From assembly GCF_041361465.1 (NCBI RefSeq), contig NZ_JBGKAC010000001.1:2914001-2978000 (forward strand): 64,000 nucleotides of DNA, written 5' to 3'. This document shows, piece after piece, positions 6,973 through 37,214 of the stretch. Source of the DNA: Halobaculum sp. MBLA0143. GTDB taxonomy: Archaea > Halobacteriota > Halobacteria > Halobacteriales > Haloferacaceae. Within the stretch, counting starts at the first letter, position 1, and each line of letters opens with the position of its first letter. A program made the translations under genes and the position numbers. Under the pieces are notes generated by a model. The model was not told the DNA's origin, made no database searches, and worked only from the letters and a program-made list of their open reading frames with translations.

Positions 6973-9900
6973 ATGAGCCAGCCGGACGTGACCGCGGAGG
7001 AGTTAGAGCTGCCGATCAAGCGAACGGACGGAGACACACTCGAACAACGCCTGACGAGCAACGCGTACGACAACATCCTGCCGGCGCGGTACCTCCGGAA
7101 GGACGCCGACGGCAACGTCACCGAGAACCAGGAGGACCTGTTCGAACGGGTCGCCCACAACATCGCGCTCGCCGAGGCCGTCTACGAGGCCGAGCGCCGC
7201 GACACGACGGTGACGGTGACGCCGGACCAGCTGAAGCCGGACCACCCGCGACGCGACGAACTCGCCGCGGAGGTGTTCGGGGCGGGCACCACCACGGACG
7301 ACGACGCCGAGACGACACTGACGGAGACGAACGTCAACAAGTTCGCCTACGAGACGGTCGTGCCGGAGCTGCCGGGCGAGATCGCCCAACACGTCCAGGA
7401 GACGGCCGCGGAGTTCCGCGACAAGATGGAGCGGCTCGCCTTCATGCCGAACTCGCCGACGCTGATGAACGCCGGCGACGAGCTCCAACAGCTGTCCGCC
7501 TGCTTCGTCGACTCTCCCGCAGACGACATCGACGACATCCACCAGACGGCCAAGGAGGCCGCCCAGGTGTTCCAGAGCGGCGGCGGGATGGGGTACGCCT
7601 TCTGGAAGCTGCGACCGTACGGTGACGCGGTCGGTTCGACGGGCGGGATCGCCTCCGGTCCGATCACGTTCATGCGGACGTTCGACCAGATGTGCGAGAC
7701 TATCGCCCAGGGTGGCGCCCGACGTGGTGCCCAGATGGGCGTGATGCGCGTCTCGCACCCGGACGTGATCCAGTTCATCCACGCGAAGAACAAGGACGTG
7801 TCGCTGGCACGGTCGCTCCGCCTGAACGACCCGGACGACTTCACCCACACGTCCTTCGCCGACGCCTTGGAGGAGGCCCGCGAACTGATCGACGACGACG
7901 GGAAGGTGCCGGAGCACCTCCGGAACGCCGTCGAGGGCCACCTCTCGAACTTCAACATCTCCGTGGGGATCACGGACGACTTCATGGACGCCGTGAAGAA
8001 CGACGAGGAGTACACGTTCACCAACCCCCGGACGGAGGAGCCACACGTCGCCACCCACGAGACGAAGGAACTGTACGAGATGTTCGGGCTGGGCGACCAC
8101 GTCGAGGTCGGCGAGACCCTGTCCGTGCCGGCCACGGAGATCTGGGACCACATCGTCGAGGGTGCCCACGAGAACGGGGAGCCGGGGATCGTCTACCTCG
8201 AACGGATCAACGAGATGCACTCGTTCGACGTAGAAGAAAATCCAGAGCATCAGATTCTTGCAACAAATCCCTGCGTCACCGGTGACACCCTCATCAGCAC
8301 CGAGAACGGCCTCGTTACCGCGGAGGAGCTGTACGAACAGGGTGTTGCGACCGACGTGGTCGTCGACGGTCGTCTGAGCGAAGAGACAGTCAAAGAGGCC
8401 AGCAGCGTCTACGAGACCGGCGAGAAAGACGTGTTCGAACTCACGACCGAGGAGGGCTACGAACTCCGTCTCACGGCCGACCACCGCGTCATGACCGACG
8501 ACGGCTGGGTCGAGGCCGGTGAACTCGACGCCGGCGACACCGTTCACATCCAGAACCGGAAGGGTGCGTTCGGTCAGCACGGCTCCGCAGAAGAGGGGCG
8601 TGTTCTCGGTTGGCTCGTCGGCGACGGCCACCTGAAGAACGGCGAGGAGCGTGCCGTCCTCAACTTCTACGACGAGGACGCAGAAGTGTCCGAGTCGTTC
8701 GCGGACGACGTGAACGAGGTCGTCCGTGAGCCGACTGGCACTGCGAACTACGAGGTCGGAGTCAACGATATCACTCGTAGCGACGACTACCGCGGGGCGC
8801 AGGCCGTCGAGCAGCGAATTCGTTCGACACGGCTGTACGAGTACGCCGCCGAGGCAGGTCTGACCGAGGAGAAGCTACAGGTCCCCGACGCCGTCATGCG
8901 CGGGAGCGAGGAGATGGCCCGCGGGTTCCTGCGTGCGTTGTTCACCGCAGATGGCGGTGTGCAGGGTAACGTCGAGAAGGGCGTCTCAGTTCGGCTGACG
9001 AGTACCAGTGTTGATCTGCTCGGCAGTGTCCAACAGCTCCTCCTCAACTTCGGGATCAAGAGCAAAATCTACGAGGAGCGACACGAGGCCGGCCTGCAGG
9101 AGATGCCCGACGGAAAGGGCGGCACTGCAGAGTACGAGCGACAGGCAGATCACGATCTCATGATCTCGAAGGACGATCTCCTCCAGTTCCGTGAGGAGAT
9201 CGGCTTCCTGCTCGACTACAAGAACGACGCGCTGGACGAGCGCCTCTCCAACTACGACCGCGGCCCCTACAGCACTCGGTTCGAGGCGACGGTCGAGTCC
9301 GTCGAACACGACGGCCACGAGACGGTGTACGACCTGACCGAACCGGAGACGAACTCCTTCGTCGCCAACGGGCTCGTGGTTCACAACTGCGGCGAGCAGC
9401 CGCTCGAAGAGTACGAGGCCTGCAACCTCGGGCACATCAACCTCTCGACGCTCGCGGACCAGGACGCGCCGGACTGGCGCGTCTGGAGCGAGGAACACGA
9501 GTTCGACACGCTGGAGGAGGGTGTCGAGCGGTTCCTCCGGGACGCCGTCGACTTCGAGGAGTTCGACGACCGCATCCAGACGGGCACGCGGTTCCTGGAG
9601 AACGTCGTCACGATGTCGGACTTCCCGGTCGACGAGATCGAGGAGACGGTCGCGGCGATGCGGAAGATCGGCATCGGGATCATGGGGCTCGCACAGCTGT
9701 ACATCCAGTTGGGCGTGAAGTACGGCGACGAGGTGGCGAACGAGATCGCCGAGCAGCTGATGACCCACATCAACCACGAGTCGAAGACGGTGAGCCACGA
9801 ACTCGCACAGGAGCGTGGCACCTTCGACGAGTGGGACGAGTCGAAGTACGCCGACCCGACGGCGTACCGCGAGTGGTTCGAGCACCACACCGGCGAGGAC

Positions 9901-12531
9901 GCCGACGAGTGGGCCGACGGCTACCCGATCCGCAACCACAACACGACGACCATCGCGCCGACGGGATGTGTCGAAGAGAACTCACTCGTCTCGACTGACG
10001 ACGGTCTGCGACCGATCAAAGATCTCGACGAGACGACTGCAGAGTTCGAACAGTGGGACGAGATCGACGTTGGCGTCACGACCGACGGCGGGACCAGAGC
10101 GGCGACCGCCGTCTACGACAACGGGTTCGCCGATGTCCGACAGATCGAGACAGAGGGTGGATTCAGCGTTGCTGCGACACCCGACCACCGCTTCCGAACG
10201 CTCACCGAGGACGGCGAGTACGCTTGGAAGGAGGCAGACGACTTCGAGTCCGGTGACCGTATCCTCCTCCAACGGAATACCTTCGACGGTGGGTCTCGGC
10301 TCTCACTCGACACGAGCGAGCGAGAGAACTACTACCGGAACACCGACGACGATCTCGAACTTCCGGCCGAGATGACGCCCGAACTCGCGGAGTTCCTCGG
10401 CTACTTCATGGGTGACGGCTACGTCCACGACGAAGTCGGTGTGAAACTCGTCGTCGAGTCGGAGGCGACAGATCTTGACGAGCATCTCCGGAGCCTCGGT
10501 GAACGACTGTTCGGTGTCACTCCAACAGTGGAAGACCGAGATACGCGCCACATGCTGACGTTCGGCGGTCGTCACCTTCCCCGGTACTTCGAGGACAACG
10601 GGTGGAAGAAAGACGACGGTAACCACGGTGAGGGAGCCGCGAGCGCGTTCATCCCCGAGGGAGTGCTGCGAGGCGACGAGGCAGTTGCGAAATCGTTCCT
10701 CCGTGGGCTGTTCGAGGCCGATGGAACGGCCTCCCGGAAGATCGAGCTCTCGACCGTCTCGCCGACGCTCGCCGACCAGGTGCAGACACTCCTGTTGTCG
10801 CTGGGCTGTGTGTTCGTCCGAGACACGCTAGAGATGGAAGCCGCGGACGACCACTACGGAGACCGTCCGCGCCACAGCATCCGTGGTGCGAACAAGCGTG
10901 AGGATCAGCGATTCCTCGACGAGGTCGGGTTCCTCACGAAGTCGACGGAATTCGACCTGACAGCGCAGTCGTACAAGAACGACACGTACCCACCGTCGGT
11001 GGTTGAGGATCTGCGGGCAGTCGACGGGTACGATTCCGTGAGCAAGCCAGTCAAGAAACGTGTCAACCAGTCGCCGATCAACGGCTCTGTCTCGCGTAAG
11101 CTCGTAAGAGATGTCGAGGCGGAGACCGGCGAGACAGTCCGAATCGACGGGCGCGAACTGACCGACTTCTACGCGGCAACCGTGGAGTCCGTCACTGAAG
11201 GAACGGCGTACACCAAGGACATCAGTGTCCCGTCGAACAATACGTACGTCGCTGATGGCTTCGTGACTCACAACACCACCTCGATGGTGGGCAACACCAC
11301 CGGCGGGTGTGAGCCGATCTACAACGTCGCCTACTACAAGAACGTCTCCGACGACGTGCAGGGCGACGAGATGCTCGTCGAGTTCGACGACTACTTCCTC
11401 CGGACGCTGGAGGAGAACGACCTCGACGTGGAGGCGGTCAAACGCGAGGCCCAAGACCAGATGGCGACCAACGAGTTCGACGGCGTCGACGGACTGGAGA
11501 CGGTTCCGGACGCAATCGGCGAACTGTTCGTCGTCACCGGCGACTTGGACGCGAAGGACCACGCCGGCGTCCAGGTGGCGTGTCAGTCCGGCGTCGACTC
11601 GGCCATCTCGAAGACGGTGAACGCGCCGAACGACTCCACCGTCGAGGACGCCCGCGAGGTGTTCGAGTACATCTACGACCACGGTGGCAAGGGCGTCACC
11701 TACTACCGCGACGGCACCCGCTCGAAGCAGGTGCTCACCACTCGCGCGGACAACACGGAGTTCGCCGACGAGACGGAGGCGGCCGAGACCATCGTCGATC
11801 AGATCGGCGAGGTGTTCGGCGGCGTCGAGGCGTTCCTCGACAACGAGGACGTGCAGGCGGCCGTCGACGCGGAGATCGACGAACTGCTGGCCGCGAGCGA
11901 GCGACCGCAGGTGAACTACACGGAAAAGCGGCCGCGGCCGGACTCGCTCACCGGGGTCACCCAGCTGATCGAGACCGGCTACGGGAAGATGTACGTCACC
12001 ATCAACGAGGACCCACAGACCGGCGAACCGTTCGAGCTGTTCGCCAACATCGGTCACTCCGGCGGGTTCACCAACTCCTTCACGGAGTCGCTGGCGAAGG
12101 TGATCTCGACGGCGCTGCGATCCGGTGTCGCCCCGGCGGAGATCATCGACGAACTCCAGGGGACCCGGTCGCCGAAGGTGGCCTGGGACAAGGGTGAACA
12201 GATCCAGTCGATCCCGGATGCCATCGGCACGGCGATGCGTCGCTACCTCGACGGCGAGATCGACCGCGCACACCCGGAACAACAGAACCTGGGTGAGATC
12301 GAGGACGCCACGCCGCCGGAGACGCCTCGGGGCGGCACCACGACGGAGCCCCCGGCCGACCCGACGCCGGAGTCCGACGGTGGCGTCGCCGCGGCGGAGG
12401 CGACGAGCGACGCGGTCGAAGAGCTCATCGCCAACGGCGAGTCGCCGGAGTGTCCGGAGTGTGGCAGCATGACGCTGTACTACTCCGAGGGCTGCAAAAC
12501 GTGCGAGAGTTGTGGGTGGAGCGAATGCTGA
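6973..12531 (+). CDS. nrdJ: Adenosylcobalamin-dependent (class II) ribonucleoside reductase with two inteins
   Basis: Makes deoxyribonucleotides using a B12-derived radical. The precursor has 1852 residues; removing the two inteins (372 and 436 residues) leaves 1044, normal for this enzyme. The extein shows QQLSACFVDS (redox Cys), the radical-site motif NP/CGEQPLEEYEACNLGHINL interrupted by intein 1, the phosphate-binding APTG/TTSMVGNTTGGCEP interrupted by intein 2, VACQSGVDSAISKTVN (second redox Cys), and a C-terminal zinc-ribbon-like tail with CPEC, CKTC and CGWSEC. I chose the ATG at 6973; an upstream GTG at 6844 gives a non-conserved arginine- and tryptophan-rich extension. Both splice junctions keep the frame. 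Confidence 0.96.
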   Translation: MSQPDVTAEELELPIKRTDGDTLEQRLTSNAYDNILPARYLRKDADGNVTENQEDLFERVAHNIALAEAVYEAERRDTTVTVTPDQLKPDHPRRDELAAEVFGAGTTTDDDAETTLTETNVNKFAYETVVPELPGEIAQHVQETAAEFRDKMERLAFMPNSPTLMNAGDELQQLSACFVDSPADDIDDIHQTAKEAAQVFQSGGGMGYAFWKLRPYGDAVGSTGGIASGPITFMRTFDQMCETIAQGGARRGAQMGVMRVSHPDVIQFIHAKNKDVSLARSLRLNDPDDFTHTSFADALEEARELIDDDGKVPEHLRNAVEGHLSNFNISVGITDDFMDAVKNDEEYTFTNPRTEEPHVATHETKELYEMFGLGDHVEVGETLSVPATEIWDHIVEGAHENGEPGIVYLERINEMHSFDVEENPEHQILATNPCVTGDTLISTENGLVTAEELYEQGVATDVVVDGRLSEETVKEASSVYETGEKDVFELTTEEGYELRLTADHRVMTDDGWVEAGELDAGDTVHIQNRKGAFGQHGSAEEGRVLGWLVGDGHLKNGEERAVLNFYDEDAEVSESFADDVNEVVREPTGTANYEVGVNDITRSDDYRGAQAVEQRIRSTRLYEYAAEAGLTEEKLQVPDAVMRGSEEMARGFLRALFTADGGVQGNVEKGVSVRLTSTSVDLLGSVQQLLLNFGIKSKIYEERHEAGLQEMPDGKGGTAEYERQADHDLMISKDDLLQFREEIGFLLDYKNDALDERLSNYDRGPYSTRFEATVESVEHDGHETVYDLTEPETNSFVANGLVVHNCGEQPLEEYEACNLGHINLSTLADQDAPDWRVWSEEHEFDTLEEGVERFLRDAVDFEEFDDRIQTGTRFLENVVTMSDFPVDEIEETVAAMRKIGIGIMGLAQLYIQLGVKYGDEVANEIAEQLMTHINHESKTVSHELAQERGTFDEWDESKYADPTAYREWFEHHTGEDADEWADGYPIRNHNTTTIAPTGCVEENSLVSTDDGLRPIKDLDETTAEFEQWDEIDVGVTTDGGTRAATAVYDNGFADVRQIETEGGFSVAATPDHRFRTLTEDGEYAWKEADDFESGDRILLQRNTFDGGSRLSLDTSERENYYRNTDDDLELPAEMTPELAEFLGYFMGDGYVHDEVGVKLVVESEATDLDEHLRSLGERLFGVTPTVEDRDTRHMLTFGGRHLPRYFEDNGWKKDDGNHGEGAASAFIPEGVLRGDEAVAKSFLRGLFEADGTASRKIELSTVSPTLADQVQTLLLSLGCVFVRDTLEMEAADDHYGDRPRHSIRGANKREDQRFLDEVGFLTKSTEFDLTAQSYKNDTYPPSVVEDLRAVDGYDSVSKPVKKRVNQSPINGSVSRKLVRDVEAETGETVRIDGRELTDFYAATVESVTEGTAYTKDISVPSNNTYVADGFVTHNTTSMVGNTTGGCEPIYNVAYYKNVSDDVQGDEMLVEFDDYFLRTLEENDLDVEAVKREAQDQMATNEFDGVDGLETVPDAIGELFVVTGDLDAKDHAGVQVACQSGVDSAISKTVNAPNDSTVEDAREVFEYIYDHGGKGVTYYRDGTRSKQVLTTRADNTEFADETEAAETIVDQIGEVFGGVEAFLDNEDVQAAVDAEIDELLAASERPQVNYTEKRPRPDSLTGVTQLIETGYGKMYVTINEDPQTGEPFELFANIGHSGGFTNSFTESLAKVISTALRSGVAPAEIIDELQGTRSPKVAWDKGEQIQSIPDAIGTAMRRYLDGEIDRAHPEQQNLGEIEDATPPETPRGGTTTEPPADPTPESDGGVAAAEATSDAVEELIANGESPECPECGSMTLYYSEGCKTCESCGWSEC
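8272..9387 (+). mobile_element. Intein 1 in NrdJ, with LAGLIDADG homing endonuclease
   Basis: In-frame protein intron of 372 residues. It begins at Cys434 of the precursor (CVTGDTLIST, block A), has block B with TADH, endonuclease motifs GWLVGDGHL and FLRALFTADG, block F (VYDLTEPETNSFVANG), and ends LVVHN. The residue after the splice point is Cys, so standard Cys1 / His-Asn / Cys+1 chemistry applies. That Cys+1 is the radical-bearing cysteine of the NPCGEQPL motif, so the reductase cannot be active before splicing. Both LAGLIDADG motifs keep their Asp, so the endonuclease may be active. Confidence 0.95.
9967..11274 (+). mobile_element. Intein 2 in NrdJ, with LAGLIDADG homing endonuclease
   Basis: In-frame protein intron of 436 residues, from Cys999 of the precursor (CVEENSLVSTDDG) to the terminal THN. 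Block B is AATPDHRF, the endonuclease motifs are LGYFMGDGYV and FLRGLFEADG, and block F is KDISVPSNNTYVADG. The first C-extein residue is Thr, an allowed +1 nucleophile. It lies in the phosphate-loop motif APTG/TTSM of the reductase. It shares no obvious close identity with intein 1 and has a more mixed codon choice than the extein. Both inteins must splice to give active enzyme. Confidence 0.94.
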
Positions 12532-32711: not shown

Positions 32712-32936
32712 TCAGCTCTCGCCCGGCGAGGACGGCGGGAGGCCGTACCGTCGAACGTACGTCACGAACCCGACGAGTCCGACCACGAGACAGACCGCGC
32801 CGACGGCTTCGACCGCGCCGCTCCCGTACGTGGTCGGGTTGTAGTTCGTCAGGTAGATACCGGCGAACTGCAGAACCGCCGACAGTGTCCCCCAGACCCG
32901 CTCCACACGCCGACGCCCGATCCGAGTGGAAGCCAC
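32712..32936 (-). CDS. Small two-helix membrane protein
   Basis: A 74-residue protein with a basic N-terminus (STRIGRRRVERVW) and two hydrophobic helices (about 15-30 and 42-60, AVEAVGAVCLVVGLVGFVTYV). No family is recognised. It starts with GTG and converges with the Lrp-type gene, ending five bases from it. Confidence 0.55.
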   Translation of the reverse strand: MASTRIGRRRVERVWGTLSAVLQFAGIYLTNYNPTTYGSGAVEAVGAVCLVVGLVGFVTYVRRYGLPPSSPGES

Positions 32937-33078
32937 GTGTCACCGTGGACAGCCGGCTCACTTCGATCCTTCGACCGGTCTCGGAACGCTCGACTCGCCG
33001 GCGCTCCCGTGGGTGGGGTCACTCTCGTGGAGCCTCACGAGCGACACCCTTTCGTCGCCGCCACCCCGTGGCTCGCAG

Positions 33079-34938
33079 GTGGAGCCGTCACGCATCCCCT
33101 CGGAGTTCCCCGCCCCCTCTCACCGCGGCAACCAAGAGCACGCGCTGCGGGAGATCCGCGACGCCTTCGCGGCCGGCAACGAAGTGGTGCTCGTGCGCGC
33201 GCCGACCGGCAGCGGGAAGTCGTTGCTCGCCCGCGCCGTCGCCGGTGCGGCCCGCACGACCGCCGACGCCGAGCCGGCACAGGCCACGGGGGCGTACTAC
33301 ACCACGCCACAGGTGTCTCAGTTGGAGGACGTGGCCGACGACGACCTCCTGTCCGACCTCCAGGTGATCCGCGGGAAGTCCAACTACACCTGTATCCTAC
33401 CGGGCGAGGAGACGACGCCCGTCGACCGAGCGCCGTGTGCCCGCGAACGGGGGTACGACTGCTCCGTCCGACACCGGTGTCCGTACTACTCGGCGCGGGC
33501 GATCGCGTCGGAGCGACCCATCGCGGCGACGACGTTGGCGTACTTCATGCGGACCGCCGGCTCCGAACTGTTCCGGCAACGGGACGTCGTCGTGATCGAC
33601 GAGGCCCACGGGCTCGCGGAGTGGGCGGAGATGTACGCCACGATCGACCTGTCGTCGCGGACGGTGCCCGTCTGGGACGAGGTGAACGTGCCGAACGTCC
33701 GGGACGCCGACGACAGCCTGGAGCGGACCGTCCGGTTCGCCGAGTCGCTCGCGGGCGCCTGTGACCGCGCACTGGAGGATCTGCGGGGTCGCCAGGAGCT
33801 GTCGCCGGCGGAGGCGACCCGCCGCGACCGGCTGGCCGAGCGGAAGTCCGAACTCGCGTGGCTCGTCCGGGACGCCCGCGACCCGGAGTCGCCGACGACG
33901 TGGGTGGTCGACCAACCGGACGGTGCCGGCGGCGATATCTCCGTCGTCCCGTTGGACCCGGCGCGGTACCTCCGACACACCGTCTGGGACCGCGGCAACC
34001 GGTTCGCGCTCCTGTCGGCGACGATCCTCGACAAGGAGTCGTTCTGTCGCGGCGTCGGCCTCGACCCGTCGACGGTCGCGTTAGTCGAGGTGGGCCACAC
34101 GTTCCCGGTCGAGAGCCGACCGTTGTTCGACACGACCTGCGGGAAGATGACGTACGACCACCGGACGGAGACGGCCCCGAAGGTCGCCCGGCTGTGTGTC
34201 AGACTGATGGCCCACCACCCGGGCGAGAAGGGGCTGATCCACGCCCACTCGTACGACATCGCCCGCCGACTGGCCGACCGGTTCGCCGACTTCGGTGTCG
34301 GCCCGCGGGTCCGCACCCACGGCCGCCAGGACCGAGACGAACAGCTCCGGCGGTGGCTGGCGACGGACGATCCGGAGGTGTTCGTCTCCGTGAAGATGGA
34401 GGAGGCGCTCGACCTGGCAGGCGACCGCTGTCGCTGGCAGGTGCTGTGTAAGGCGCCGTACGCCAACACGAACGACTCTCGGGTCGCCCGTCGGCTGGCA
34501 GACGACCAGTGGGGCTGGTACTACCGCACCGCACTCCAGACCGTGATCCAGGCGTGTGGCCGGGTCGTCCGGTCGCCCGACGACTACGGCGCGACGTACC
34601 TCGCCGACAGTTCGCTGCTGGAACTGTTCGACCGTGCCGCGAGCGACGTGCCGCCGTGGTTCCAGGACCAGATCGACCGGATCTCGACGCCGTCGCCCCC
34701 GGAGTTCGACCCCGAGGCCGCGATGGCCGACCACCCCGCGCCGCCGACGCCCGGGCGCGAGCCTCGCGGCGGGGTGGGCGACGACGGCCGGCAGACCGAC
34801 GACACGACCGACGGGCGTGGAGGTCGCGGAGACGGGAGCGGTGACGGTGGTCGGGCCGGTGGCGACGGCGGGAGTGACGACACTGACGGCTCCGGTAGCG
34901 ACGTGGACGACCACCCGCTGTCGGACGTGTGGGGGTAG
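33079..34938 (+). CDS. Superfamily 2 DNA helicase with Fe-S domain (XPD/DinG-like)
   Basis: ATP-dependent 5'-3' DNA helicase of about 619 residues. HRGNQEHALREI is the Q-motif-like entry, APTGSGKS is Walker A, and VIDEAHGLAEWAEMY is the DEAH box. The iron-sulfur region has four Cys, spaced NYTCILPGEE, RAPCARERGYDC and RHRCPYYSA. Motifs in the second RecA domain include LLSATIL, FVSVKMEEALDLAGDRCRW and VIQACGRVVRSPDDYG. The last 85 residues are a low-complexity Gly/Asp tail. The open frame begins at 32926; the GTG at 33079 gives a conserved start but is not certain. Confidence 0.88.
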   Translation: MEPSRIPSEFPAPSHRGNQEHALREIRDAFAAGNEVVLVRAPTGSGKSLLARAVAGAARTTADAEPAQATGAYYTTPQVSQLEDVADDDLLSDLQVIRGKSNYTCILPGEETTPVDRAPCARERGYDCSVRHRCPYYSARAIASERPIAATTLAYFMRTAGSELFRQRDVVVIDEAHGLAEWAEMYATIDLSSRTVPVWDEVNVPNVRDADDSLERTVRFAESLAGACDRALEDLRGRQELSPAEATRRDRLAERKSELAWLVRDARDPESPTTWVVDQPDGAGGDISVVPLDPARYLRHTVWDRGNRFALLSATILDKESFCRGVGLDPSTVALVEVGHTFPVESRPLFDTTCGKMTYDHRTETAPKVARLCVRLMAHHPGEKGLIHAHSYDIARRLADRFADFGVGPRVRTHGRQDRDEQLRRWLATDDPEVFVSVKMEEALDLAGDRCRWQVLCKAPYANTNDSRVARRLADDQWGWYYRTALQTVIQACGRVVRSPDDYGATYLADSSLLELFDRAASDVPPWFQDQIDRISTPSPPEFDPEAAMADHPAPPTPGREPRGGVGDDGRQTDDTTDGRGGRGDGSGDGGRAGGDGGSDDTDGSGSDVDDHPLSDVWG

Positions 34939-35148
34939 CTACTCGTCGTCTGCGTCGGCGACTACGAACTGTGAGAACTCGGGGGTCTCGAGGTCACTCA
35001 CATCCTGGGTCCCCTGTGTCGGCTCCGTCTCTGTGGGCTCGGTCAGTTCCGACAGCAGTTCGTCCCGTTGCTCGTCGGACAGTCGCGGGACTGTCGGCCG
35101 TCCGAACGATCCATCCGTGCGTTCGTCCCGAAATCTGTCCAGACTCAT
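34939..35148 (-). CDS. Small acidic protein, partner of the proteasome-like gene
   Basis: A 69-residue protein, about one third Asp/Glu, mostly disordered with one likely helix (LSDEQRDELLSELTEP). Its ATG shares a base with the stop of the upstream proteasome-like gene (TAATG), so the two are translationally coupled. No family is recognised. It could be an assembly factor or regulator of that hydrolase, or an unrelated passenger. It converges with the helicase gene. Confidence 0.55.
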   Translation of the reverse strand: MSLDRFRDERTDGSFGRPTVPRLSDEQRDELLSELTEPTETEPTQGTQDVSDLETPEFSQFVVADADDE

Positions 35149-35992
35149 TACTCACCCCAGTCTACGGGGTCATCGTTTAGAATCTTTTCCCTCACGCTCT
35201 CCTGCTCGTCTGCGATCCGTTGCTGTCTGTCCATCAGCTGCTCGATGGTTCCGCTATCAACCTCTCTCGCACCGTCGGACGAGACAACCATTGCGTCAAG
35301 CTCTCCGCCAACGCCACTGGCTTTCGACGCTTGGTGATGGGCAGCGGCAATCGTAGCAAACGTATCTGAAATCGAATTGTCCTTTGCGTAGTCCCCCTTT
35401 ATAAACTCGGACTCTGCAGGCTGTGATCCACTTCCAATCGTTGCGTAGCCGAGGTCGTTCTGCGGATTGTGATCCCCACTACTAATCTGATACACACCCG
35501 CTCCGTCGGGACCTACGCCACCGATGAGAAAATTAAGATTGCGGTTTATCTCACGACGAACTTGTTCTGACTCTGCAAGAATATCCTCGAAGAAACTGTC
35601 TTTAAACTGATGCTGTCGGCTGAGATCTTCGAGCGAGAGCCCGTACGGTTTGGGGGCGTGCGTCTCGATCTTCTTCTGTACGAGCCGTCTGTACTCCTTC
35701 GCTGCTATTTGTGCAGCAGTCTGCACCCACGGTTCTCTTTCCTTATCATTCAAAAAGTATATCAGAGAATCGTCCACTTCGTTCAAGTACTGCTCTCCCA
35801 GCTCGACACTCCCGGCTATCACGCCGACAAGATGTGTCTCATCGAGAAAATCTCCAACCTCGTTCAGCTTCGTCTCCGGATGCTCGTGTTCGATTGCCGA
35901 CTGCTGTCGCGTCGTGATCATACGGTCAGACGAGACAACACCTTCGGGTCGTCCGTCCCGTGTGCGGAGATTGCTGCGATACCGACTGTCAC
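35148..35992 (-). pseudogene. Proteasome-type Ntn-hydrolase, frame broken by one base
   Basis: Two frames join into one 20S-proteasome-beta-like protein. From the GTG at 35992 the first frame reads MTVGIAAISAHGTDDP. From the neighbouring frame follows EGVVSSDRMITTRQQSA and on to the stop at 35148. Homology cues are TVGI then GVV.SDR, K in HPETKL, VGVIAGS, and YATIGSGSQPAESEFI. After Met removal, Thr would be residue 1, with Asp22 and Lys41 near the expected triad positions. The switch maps to a GGG run at 35946-35948 (CCC on the coding strand); one extra C would restore the frame. An ATG at 35921 alone gives a 257-residue product lacking the first strands. AT-rich composition suggests transfer. 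Confidence 0.7.
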
Positions 35993-36015
35993 ACCAGTCT
36001 GCTAGCTCCCTCCAG

Positions 36016-36025
36016 AAATATAAAA
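36016..36025 (-). promoter_or_regulatory. TATA box of the proteasome-like gene
   Basis: AAATATAAAA on the plus strand (TTTTATATTT on the coding strand) lies 24-33 bases upstream of the GTG at 35992. This spacing is ideal for a leaderless transcript and supports 35992, not 35921, as the true start. Confidence 0.65.
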
Positions 36026-36059: not shown

Positions 36060-37214
36060 TCATCCATTATCGACGATCAGTTCTGGCACCAGAAACACCT
36101 CGCCGTCGAACTTCACGGCCGGCACTGTCTCCCCCTCGGTCGCGCCGTCCGCGTCGAAGAAGTCGGGGTTGGGGACGCTGACGGCTTCGAACGTCTCCGG
36201 ATCGAGCACCTGGACGGCGTTCTCGTCCTCGACGGCCACGAGTGTCACGGGGTCGCCGTCGTCGACGTGGCCCAGCTGCTCGGCGTCGCTCAGGTCCGCG
36301 TCCGTCTGGAACTGTCGGCCGCTCCGGAGCCGGACGCCGGTGATCGCTCCGCCGACGGTCTCCACCACCACGGGCCCCGACCCCTCGACGGCCGTCAGCC
36401 CGGCGGGCTCGGGGTCGATCACGTCGCCCGGGCGGAACCGTGGCAGTCGGACGGAGTAGGTGACGCGGTACACCTCGTTGCCGTCGCTGTCTTCGGTGAC
36501 GAGTGTCGCCGACTCCGAGACGCTCCCGCCCAGTTCGCGGACGATCCGGTCCGCGACGCGGCCGCCGAGCTTCGTCGTGGACAGCTTCACGTTCGGGCCG
36601 TCGTCCGTCCGGTCGACCTCCGTCAGGAACGCCTCCCGGTCGCCGGCGTCCTCTCGCTCGGCGACCACCTCGCGGACGATCTCGACGGCGCGGTCGCGTT
36701 CGTCGCTCGACGGCCGACGGTCCACCGCCCGCACCTGGACGGTCGCGGCGTACGAACCGCCCGCGATCCGGCCACACCGCTCGCACGTCTGCCGGGCGAT
36801 CTTCACCGGGACCGTCGTCTCCGCCTCGACGGCCGACTCGCGGACGATCCCCGTGAACTGACAGTGCATCCGGATCGTCGTCTCGTCGACCTGCTCCGGC
36901 TCGACACCCCAGGTCACCTCTCGGGCGTCTAAGTGGACCCCAAGCGACTGTGTCACCTCCTCTACGGCCACGTCCGTGTAGTCACGGGCGCCAACGTCCA
37001 CCCAACGGTTGCCCCGGTGGACGGCGCCACACCGGGCACACACCCGGACCTGGACCCGGTCGGGGGCGTCGACGAGGTCGAACGTCTCGAAGTAACAGTC
37101 GTCACACAGCAACCGGTCCCGGTCGCGCGGCGCCCCGGGCAACGGCTCCTCCCGCGGCGGGACGGCGTCGCCACACTCCGGGCAGAACTCCCGGCGTTCC
37201 CGCGTCTCGCTCAT
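36060..37214 (-). CDS. NMD3 family protein (60S export / large-subunit maturation factor homolog)
   Basis: A 384-residue protein. The N-terminal part holds Cys pairs for zinc knuckles (FCPECGD, LLCDDCYF, VRVCARCGAVHRG, then ARQTCERCGRIAGGSYAATVQVRA), which is the NMD3 layout. The middle is a KH-like/eIF5A-like region and the last 90 residues are a beta-rich domain. In archaea NMD3 binds the large ribosomal subunit and is thought to take part in its maturation. The gene borders the AT-rich proteasome-like module at its 3' end. Confidence 0.9.
   Translation of the reverse strand: MSETRERREFCPECGDAVPPREEPLPGAPRDRDRLLCDDCYFETFDLVDAPDRVQVRVCARCGAVHRGNRWVDVGARDYTDVAVEEVTQSLGVHLDAREVTWGVEPEQVDETTIRMHCQFTGIVRESAVEAETTVPVKIARQTCERCGRIAGGSYAATVQVRAVDRRPSSDERDRAVEIVREVVAEREDAGDREAFLTEVDRTDDGPNVKLSTTKLGGRVADRIVRELGGSVSESATLVTEDSDGNEVYRVTYSVRLPRFRPGDVIDPEPAGLTAVEGSGPVVVETVGGAITGVRLRSGRQFQTDADLSDAEQLGHVDDGDPVTLVAVEDENAVQVLDPETFEAVSVPNPDFFDADGATEGETVPAVKFDGEVFLVPELIVDNG

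Follow-up and report, generated by a model that had tools for sequence, protein, structure and literature searches.

The genome of Halobaculum sp. MBLA0143 contains a short AT-rich segment in which two adjacent reading frames seem to make up one proteasome-like protein and in which a tiny acidic protein is encoded directly downstream. This arrangement raises the question of what kind of unit the two genes form and why the larger one is interrupted. The segment lies in a stretch of 64,000 nucleotides, which was analysed as a whole and is referred to as the window. In our view, the locus probably represents a mobile cassette, here in a broken copy, whose two genes encode a hydrolase and a small regulator used in conflicts involving mobile elements.

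Layout of the locus and its interrupted reading frame

The coordinates of the locus given in the original prediction, which was made from the sequence alone, proved to be correct (Table 1). Between positions 35001 and 36000 the GC content is 0.54, compared with about 0.69 in the surroundings. The frame that begins at the GTG codon reads MTVGIAAISAHGTDDP... and runs into a stop after 24 codons, and the 257-codon frame behind it carries the equivalents of Lys33 and Gly47, a helical insertion and a C-terminal helix. The start of the small ORF overlaps the stop of the hydrolase gene as ATGA. The TATA box that had been proposed to fix the GTG as the start codon is indeed present, and the TTTATA sequence is common to the genome G001 from the same genus, the viral contig G726 and others, where it is located at -31; a TATA-like box is found at -27 to -33 in most other members of the cassette family. 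The distance between box and GTG codon implies that the transcript is leaderless or nearly so. The upstream neighbour is a gene that we take, from our reading of its sequence, to encode an NMD3-like protein.

Table 1 Features of the cassette and of the genes flanking it (positions in the window)
Feature	Position	Strand	Remarks
Helicase-like gene, host backbone	32926..34938	+	Convergent; other flank of the cassette
Complete cassette	34939..36024	-	TATA box, split hydrolase gene and 69-codon gene
Small acidic partner gene	34939..35148	-	69 codons; helix motif LSDEQRDELLSEL
Remaining open frame of the predicted proteasome-like Ntn hydrolase	35148..35921	-	ATG at 35921; 257 codons
5' part of the hydrolase gene	35922..35992	-	GTG start; Met-Thr with the predicted catalytic Thr1, up to Asp17
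TATA box (TTTATA)	36019..36024	-	32 nt 5' of the GTG start
NMD3-like gene (presumed), host backbone	36060..37214	-	Upstream neighbour; in 30/30 relatives searched

An intact orthologue with the same neighbours is present in G001 (L011:10186-11034). It encodes 282 aa in a single frame, has ATG as its start codon in place of the GTG of the window, is 83-84% identical to the window hydrolase and is covered over residues 1-281 without a break. Since this syntenic, 84% identical orthologue comes from the same genus, the joined reading frame of the window hydrolase is real, as had been proposed. Moreover, the segment 35922-35992 is present in the homologues, which leaves that claim unrefuted. The aligned hydrolase genes of the window and of G001 differ by one base in length, and as sequenced the window copy is broken. 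The original prediction demanded an additional C in the CCC at 35946-35948. However, in the DNA alignment with G001 the gap falls a few nt 3' of CCC, at AAGGT-GTTGT versus GAGGTGGTTGT, and the one-base deletion lies within about 35938-35948. When both placements were compared with four relatives, AAGGT-GTTGT gave 12, 8, 8 and 6 matches and the C run 12, 7, 6 and 5 (of 13). The relatives thus slightly favour a loss at AAGGT-GTTGT, and the missing base need not have been part of the C run.

The broken state of this particular copy could also be due to an error in sequencing or assembly, with an intact and working gene in the organism, and we take this explanation seriously without favouring it. 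The 257-codon part contains no further stop or indel and shows a dN/dS of 0.09 in comparison with G001, so that the base must have been lost recently or the loss is a sequencing error. Moreover, the genome of the window (G000) has no second copy of the hydrolase. However, the site contains no long homopolymer, and truly decayed copies exist elsewhere in the family. No other split frame was detected in about 25-30 orthologous stretches across the window, where short shifts near gene ends would escape; this argues against an indel-rich assembly, while one error is still possible. Programmed -1 frameshifting, another option of the original prediction, would suit two frames that are both still open in an otherwise conserved gene, but it is very improbable and was rejected because a single frame encodes the protein in the orthologue and in every intact relative.

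The comparison with G001 revealed two further peculiarities. The part of the hydrolase gene at 35151-35921 has a dS of 1.1 relative to L011, whereas the values are about 0.5 for both neighbours and 0.34 for the small gene; the weaker codon bias of an AT-rich gene or an exchange of alleles could be the cause. At 6973-12528 of the window, a 1462-aa protein of G001 matches with its residues 1-434 and 1158-1462 only, and the differing middle perhaps represents inteins.

Predicted fold and active site of the hydrolase

Structure prediction was carried out as a test that could have refuted the proposed proteasome-type hydrolase. The AlphaFold2 model, which was built on the intact G001 orthologue and 15 relatives, is confident (pLDDT 87.3, pTM 0.83) and contains the four-layer alpha-beta-beta-alpha sandwich of Ntn hydrolases. 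It includes the helices H1 (63-84), H2 (90-117), H3 (190-199) and H4 (208-222), inserted helices after H1/H2 (121-125 and 132-152) and a long C-terminal helix (247-274), and H3 and H4 are linked by a short loop with no insertion. A Foldseek search matched the model to beta subunits of the 20S proteasome with an E value of about 1e-11, and a VIA-align superposition on 20S beta gave a Z of 25.7 and an rmsd of 2.1 over 209 residues, with residue 2 of the model lying on residue 1 of the beta subunit. The family profile also matched an archaeal beta subunit in the PDB (E 1.5e-7). The residues T2, D23, K42 and G61, which correspond to Thr1, Asp17, Lys33 and Gly47, are invariant in the 16 sequences. 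Taken together, the model and the invariant active site support the original assignment, and the protein is predicted to be a stand-alone Ntn hydrolase with the proteasome-beta fold. The Pfam model PF00227, with a gathering cut-off of 22.4 bits, gave 24.8 for the protein of L016, 19.8 for L012, 18.7 for L011 and 15.9 for the window ORF.

The hydrolase starts with Met-Thr and lacks a propeptide. With Thr in the second position, the usual removal of the initiator Met would bare the Thr nucleophile, and the enzyme is presumably proteolytic.

The acidic partner and the mobility of the pair

The haloarchaeal hydrolases form a clade of their own (tree support 100/99), and in 10 of its 11 lineages a short acidic ORF starts about -14 to +9 nt from the hydrolase stop. 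The exception is L014, in which the hydrolase frame has been kept, the small ORF is missing and the start codon has also been lost. Among 204 control ORFs, 22 are followed by any such short ORF and 8 (4%) by an acidic one, which corresponds to a p of about 1e-11 for the pairing, a value that overstates independence because the lineages are related. The coupling to the hydrolase that had been proposed for the small protein is thus a feature of the haloarchaeal family. The small proteins consist of 41-70 aa and can hardly be aligned to each other. However, a motif search uncovered a common helix, SxEExxxLLxxL, with a score of 61.3 versus 44.0 +/- 3.6 for shuffled sequences (highest of 40 scores, 53.3). 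Contrary to the original prediction, according to which the 69-residue protein has no match, it is 78% identical to its counterpart in G001 and has motif-level relatives at about ten other loci. The small gene shows a dN/dS of 0.33 between the window and G001 (p 0.008) and of 0.29 between L015 and L016 (p 0.02), and these values support a coding gene under purifying selection. When the hydrolase and the partner of L055 were modelled as one chain, with the stop read as Gln, the motif helix was moderately ordered (pLDDT block means of 79 and 70) and the rest was poor. We infer that the partner physically contacts the hydrolase.

In the wider, non-haloarchaeal family, several members have no acidic partner. 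Sometimes, as in L066, L069, L070 and L114, an overlapping 41-60-aa ORF is located directly 3' of the hydrolase homologue, and its product is basic rather than acidic. A different arrangement was observed for two divergent haloarchaeal homologues of the MTICI/MTVCI type (L037:7331-8706 and L127:1357-2740, from the genomes G410 and G737). They have no acidic downstream gene; upstream lies a gene for a membrane protein of about 190 aa, which overlaps in L037 and whose product is weakly similar to PycTM/2TM defence effectors (PADLOC E 0.003-0.01). These homologues possibly form another type of pair, in which the hydrolase is combined with a membrane effector.

The original prediction had read the low GC content as a sign of transfer, and the distribution of the cassette bears this out. 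A single homologous block of 1,155 bp, 91.4% identical, is common to Haloarcula argentinensis (L015) and Halorussus marinus (L016). It begins about 100 bp before the hydrolase gene and extends to about 90 bp past the small gene, thereby including the promoter and both genes; no other alignment between the two loci was obtained in 16 kb. This block shows that the hydrolase and its partner move as a 1.15-kb cassette with its own promoter. Moreover, scans of viral contigs with subsets of the 16-sequence family alignment identified intact pairs in two IMG/VR contigs that derive from tailed viruses of haloarchaea. In IMGVR_UViG_3300010222_000172 (G726) the pair is located directly before the tape measure gene, and in IMGVR_UViG_3300026962_000013 (G725), which also carries terminase, portal, capsid-type and integrase genes, it follows fibre-like genes. 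The copy of the latter contig groups with Halorubrum sp. CSM-61 in the subclade of the window (100/100), and in the tree the viral and chromosomal hydrolases are interleaved.

A decayed copy is present on plasmid pL23 of Natronomonas pharaonis (NC_007428; L056:6001-6411), the sole match among the plasmids. It consists of 42 N-terminal codons, an internal deletion and the intact small gene, which is annotated as hypothetical; its product WP_011323375.1 is the surviving partner of a deleted proteasome-like hydrolase. G001 also has a further copy (L017), in which the hydrolase gene has decayed and the small gene is intact. The prevalence is patchy, with 8 of 392 genomes of the order and 8 of 170 genomes of the family. 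A scan of the genome contigs with a single hydrolase protein gave no match, whereas the family alignment as query retrieved 5 loci, and the phage records contained no match to the hydrolase family.

The window is a stretch of a haloarchaeal chromosome, and the content of the spot that the cassette occupies there differs among relatives. For instance, G017 has about 200 bp between the NMD3 and helicase genes and no cargo gene. A gene with weak similarity to UPF0175 is found in G009 and a comparable ORF in G004, and G002 carries another set of genes, which weakly resemble PemK and MarR (the cargo loci are L106:3492-4755, L079:2641-2832 and L093:2666-2860). From these gene contents, the NMD3-helicase interval looks like an insertion spot for small cargo.

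Possible function and relation to known systems

The pair could function as follows. Both proteins would be made from one short transcript, and the combination of a propeptide-free hydrolase and a tiny acidic protein on this transcript suggests that the partner restrains or steers the enzyme. The acidic protein, with its one conserved amphipathic helix, would most likely be a dedicated regulator, acting either as an inhibitor or as a substrate adaptor. The cassette travels among haloarchaeal chromosomes, plasmids and tailed viruses, and its carriage by viruses and plasmids suggests a role in virus/plasmid conflict, in which the pair would most likely aid its carrier by cleaving a specific protein. 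The original prediction had considered a defence or protein-control unit, which may be correct. The conflict role is inferred from the locations, which would also fit an ordinary viral accessory gene. Tentatively, we propose that haloarchaea and their tailed viruses carry a hitherto unrecognised kind of conflict module, whose proteasome-like Thr hydrolase lacks a propeptide and is checked or aimed by a small acidic protein dedicated to it.

Alternatively, the genes could be an addiction pair similar to toxin-antitoxin systems, in which the free hydrolase is harmful and neutralised by the small acidic protein, so that a separate defence role would not be needed. Compact, overlapping genes on mobile elements are in line with this explanation, as are the weakly PemK-like and UPF0175-like genes in the same spot of relatives. 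Moreover, the hydrolase is broken and the small gene intact in the window, in L017 and in pL23. However, the hydrolase gene is about four times longer, so that three cases with a broken hydrolase would arise by chance at roughly even odds, and from gene length alone the small gene is expected to survive in decayed copies about half the time. As proof of toxicity this pattern was therefore dismissed as statistically weak, the larger gene being mutated more often. The enzyme gene also comes first, opposite to most type II pairs, and we regard an addiction pair as unlikely.

The pair could also be a viral accessory for the assembly or maturation of virions, for instance for the processing of tail proteins, that is occasionally stranded in hosts. 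This explanation would account for the position of the pair beside tail genes in the two viral contigs, where it precedes the tape measure gene in G726 and follows the fibre genes in G725. However, the scans gave only these two haloarchaeal viral contigs, purifying selection acts on chromosomal copies that lack other virus genes, and the moving cassette comprises two genes only. A purely viral accessory function therefore seems rather improbable. If the preferred reading of a conflict between elements is true, the proteasome fold would have been put to a new use; the literature searched contained no report of proteasome-like proteins acting in conflicts, with preprints and most subscription journals outside the search. 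The function of the hydrolase and its partner can be tested in a genetically tractable haloarchaeon.

The hydrolase is a member of the "new proteasome homologs", a protein class that has been described previously and comprises 22 new proteasome-like families for which no informative genomic context was reported (Fuchs, Alva and Lupas 2021; PMC8665760). New here are the conserved acidic partner and the finding that the pair is mobile and also occurs in archaeal viruses, and the three features of partner, cassette mobility and viral carriage provide a handle on the function of one of these families. With the beta subunit of the 20S proteasome, the hydrolase shares the fold, Thr1/Asp17/Lys33/Gly47 and a profile similarity that is detectable in the C-terminal half; unlike the beta subunit, it is about 80 residues longer, has no propeptide and is not accompanied by an alpha subunit. 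The hydrolases reach 19-28 bits with the archaeal beta equivalog TIGR03634 of NCBIfam, for which the cut-off is 224 bits, and the genome of the window has three regular proteasome-subunit matches elsewhere; a 20S beta subunit was ruled out on both grounds. Two other candidates were also rejected. PMI-4 (Fuchs et al. 2021) does not fit a model that lacks an insertion between H3 and H4, and connectase (DUF2121), which has no H1/H2 and a two-helix insertion between S3 and S4, does not fit one in which H1 and H2 are present; a match of the hydrolase to DUF2121 was not obtained either.

Like type II toxin-antitoxin systems, the cassette is a compact, mobile and overlapping pair with a small acidic member, and one relative has a weakly PemK-like gene in its place, but the enzyme of the cassette is a proteasome-like hydrolase that is encoded by the first gene. 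A comparison with the PADLOC models of known anti-phage defence systems gave no family for the hydrolases, nor for the small protein of L011, even at E values as high as 1. The phage-borne proteasome homologs PPH and AAH (Fuchs et al. 2021) are likewise proteasome-like proteins of tailed viruses; they are bacterial, belong to group I and are short, with no insertion, whereas the present ones are haloarchaeal-viral and have a partner gene. In its layout, the hydrolase is nearest to the PHI class (representative WP_012956871.1; Fuchs et al. 2021, PMC8665760), which occurs in archaea and bacteria, including Euryarchaeota, and has a C-terminal coiled coil in some members. Both are stand-alone proteasome-like subunits without a propeptide, with a long insertion following H1/H2 and a C-terminal helix, and in both H3 and H4 are joined without an insertion. 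In contrast to the PHI proteins, for which the paper gives no partner gene or informative context, the present hydrolase is accompanied by an acidic partner in a mobile cassette that is also carried by archaeal viruses.
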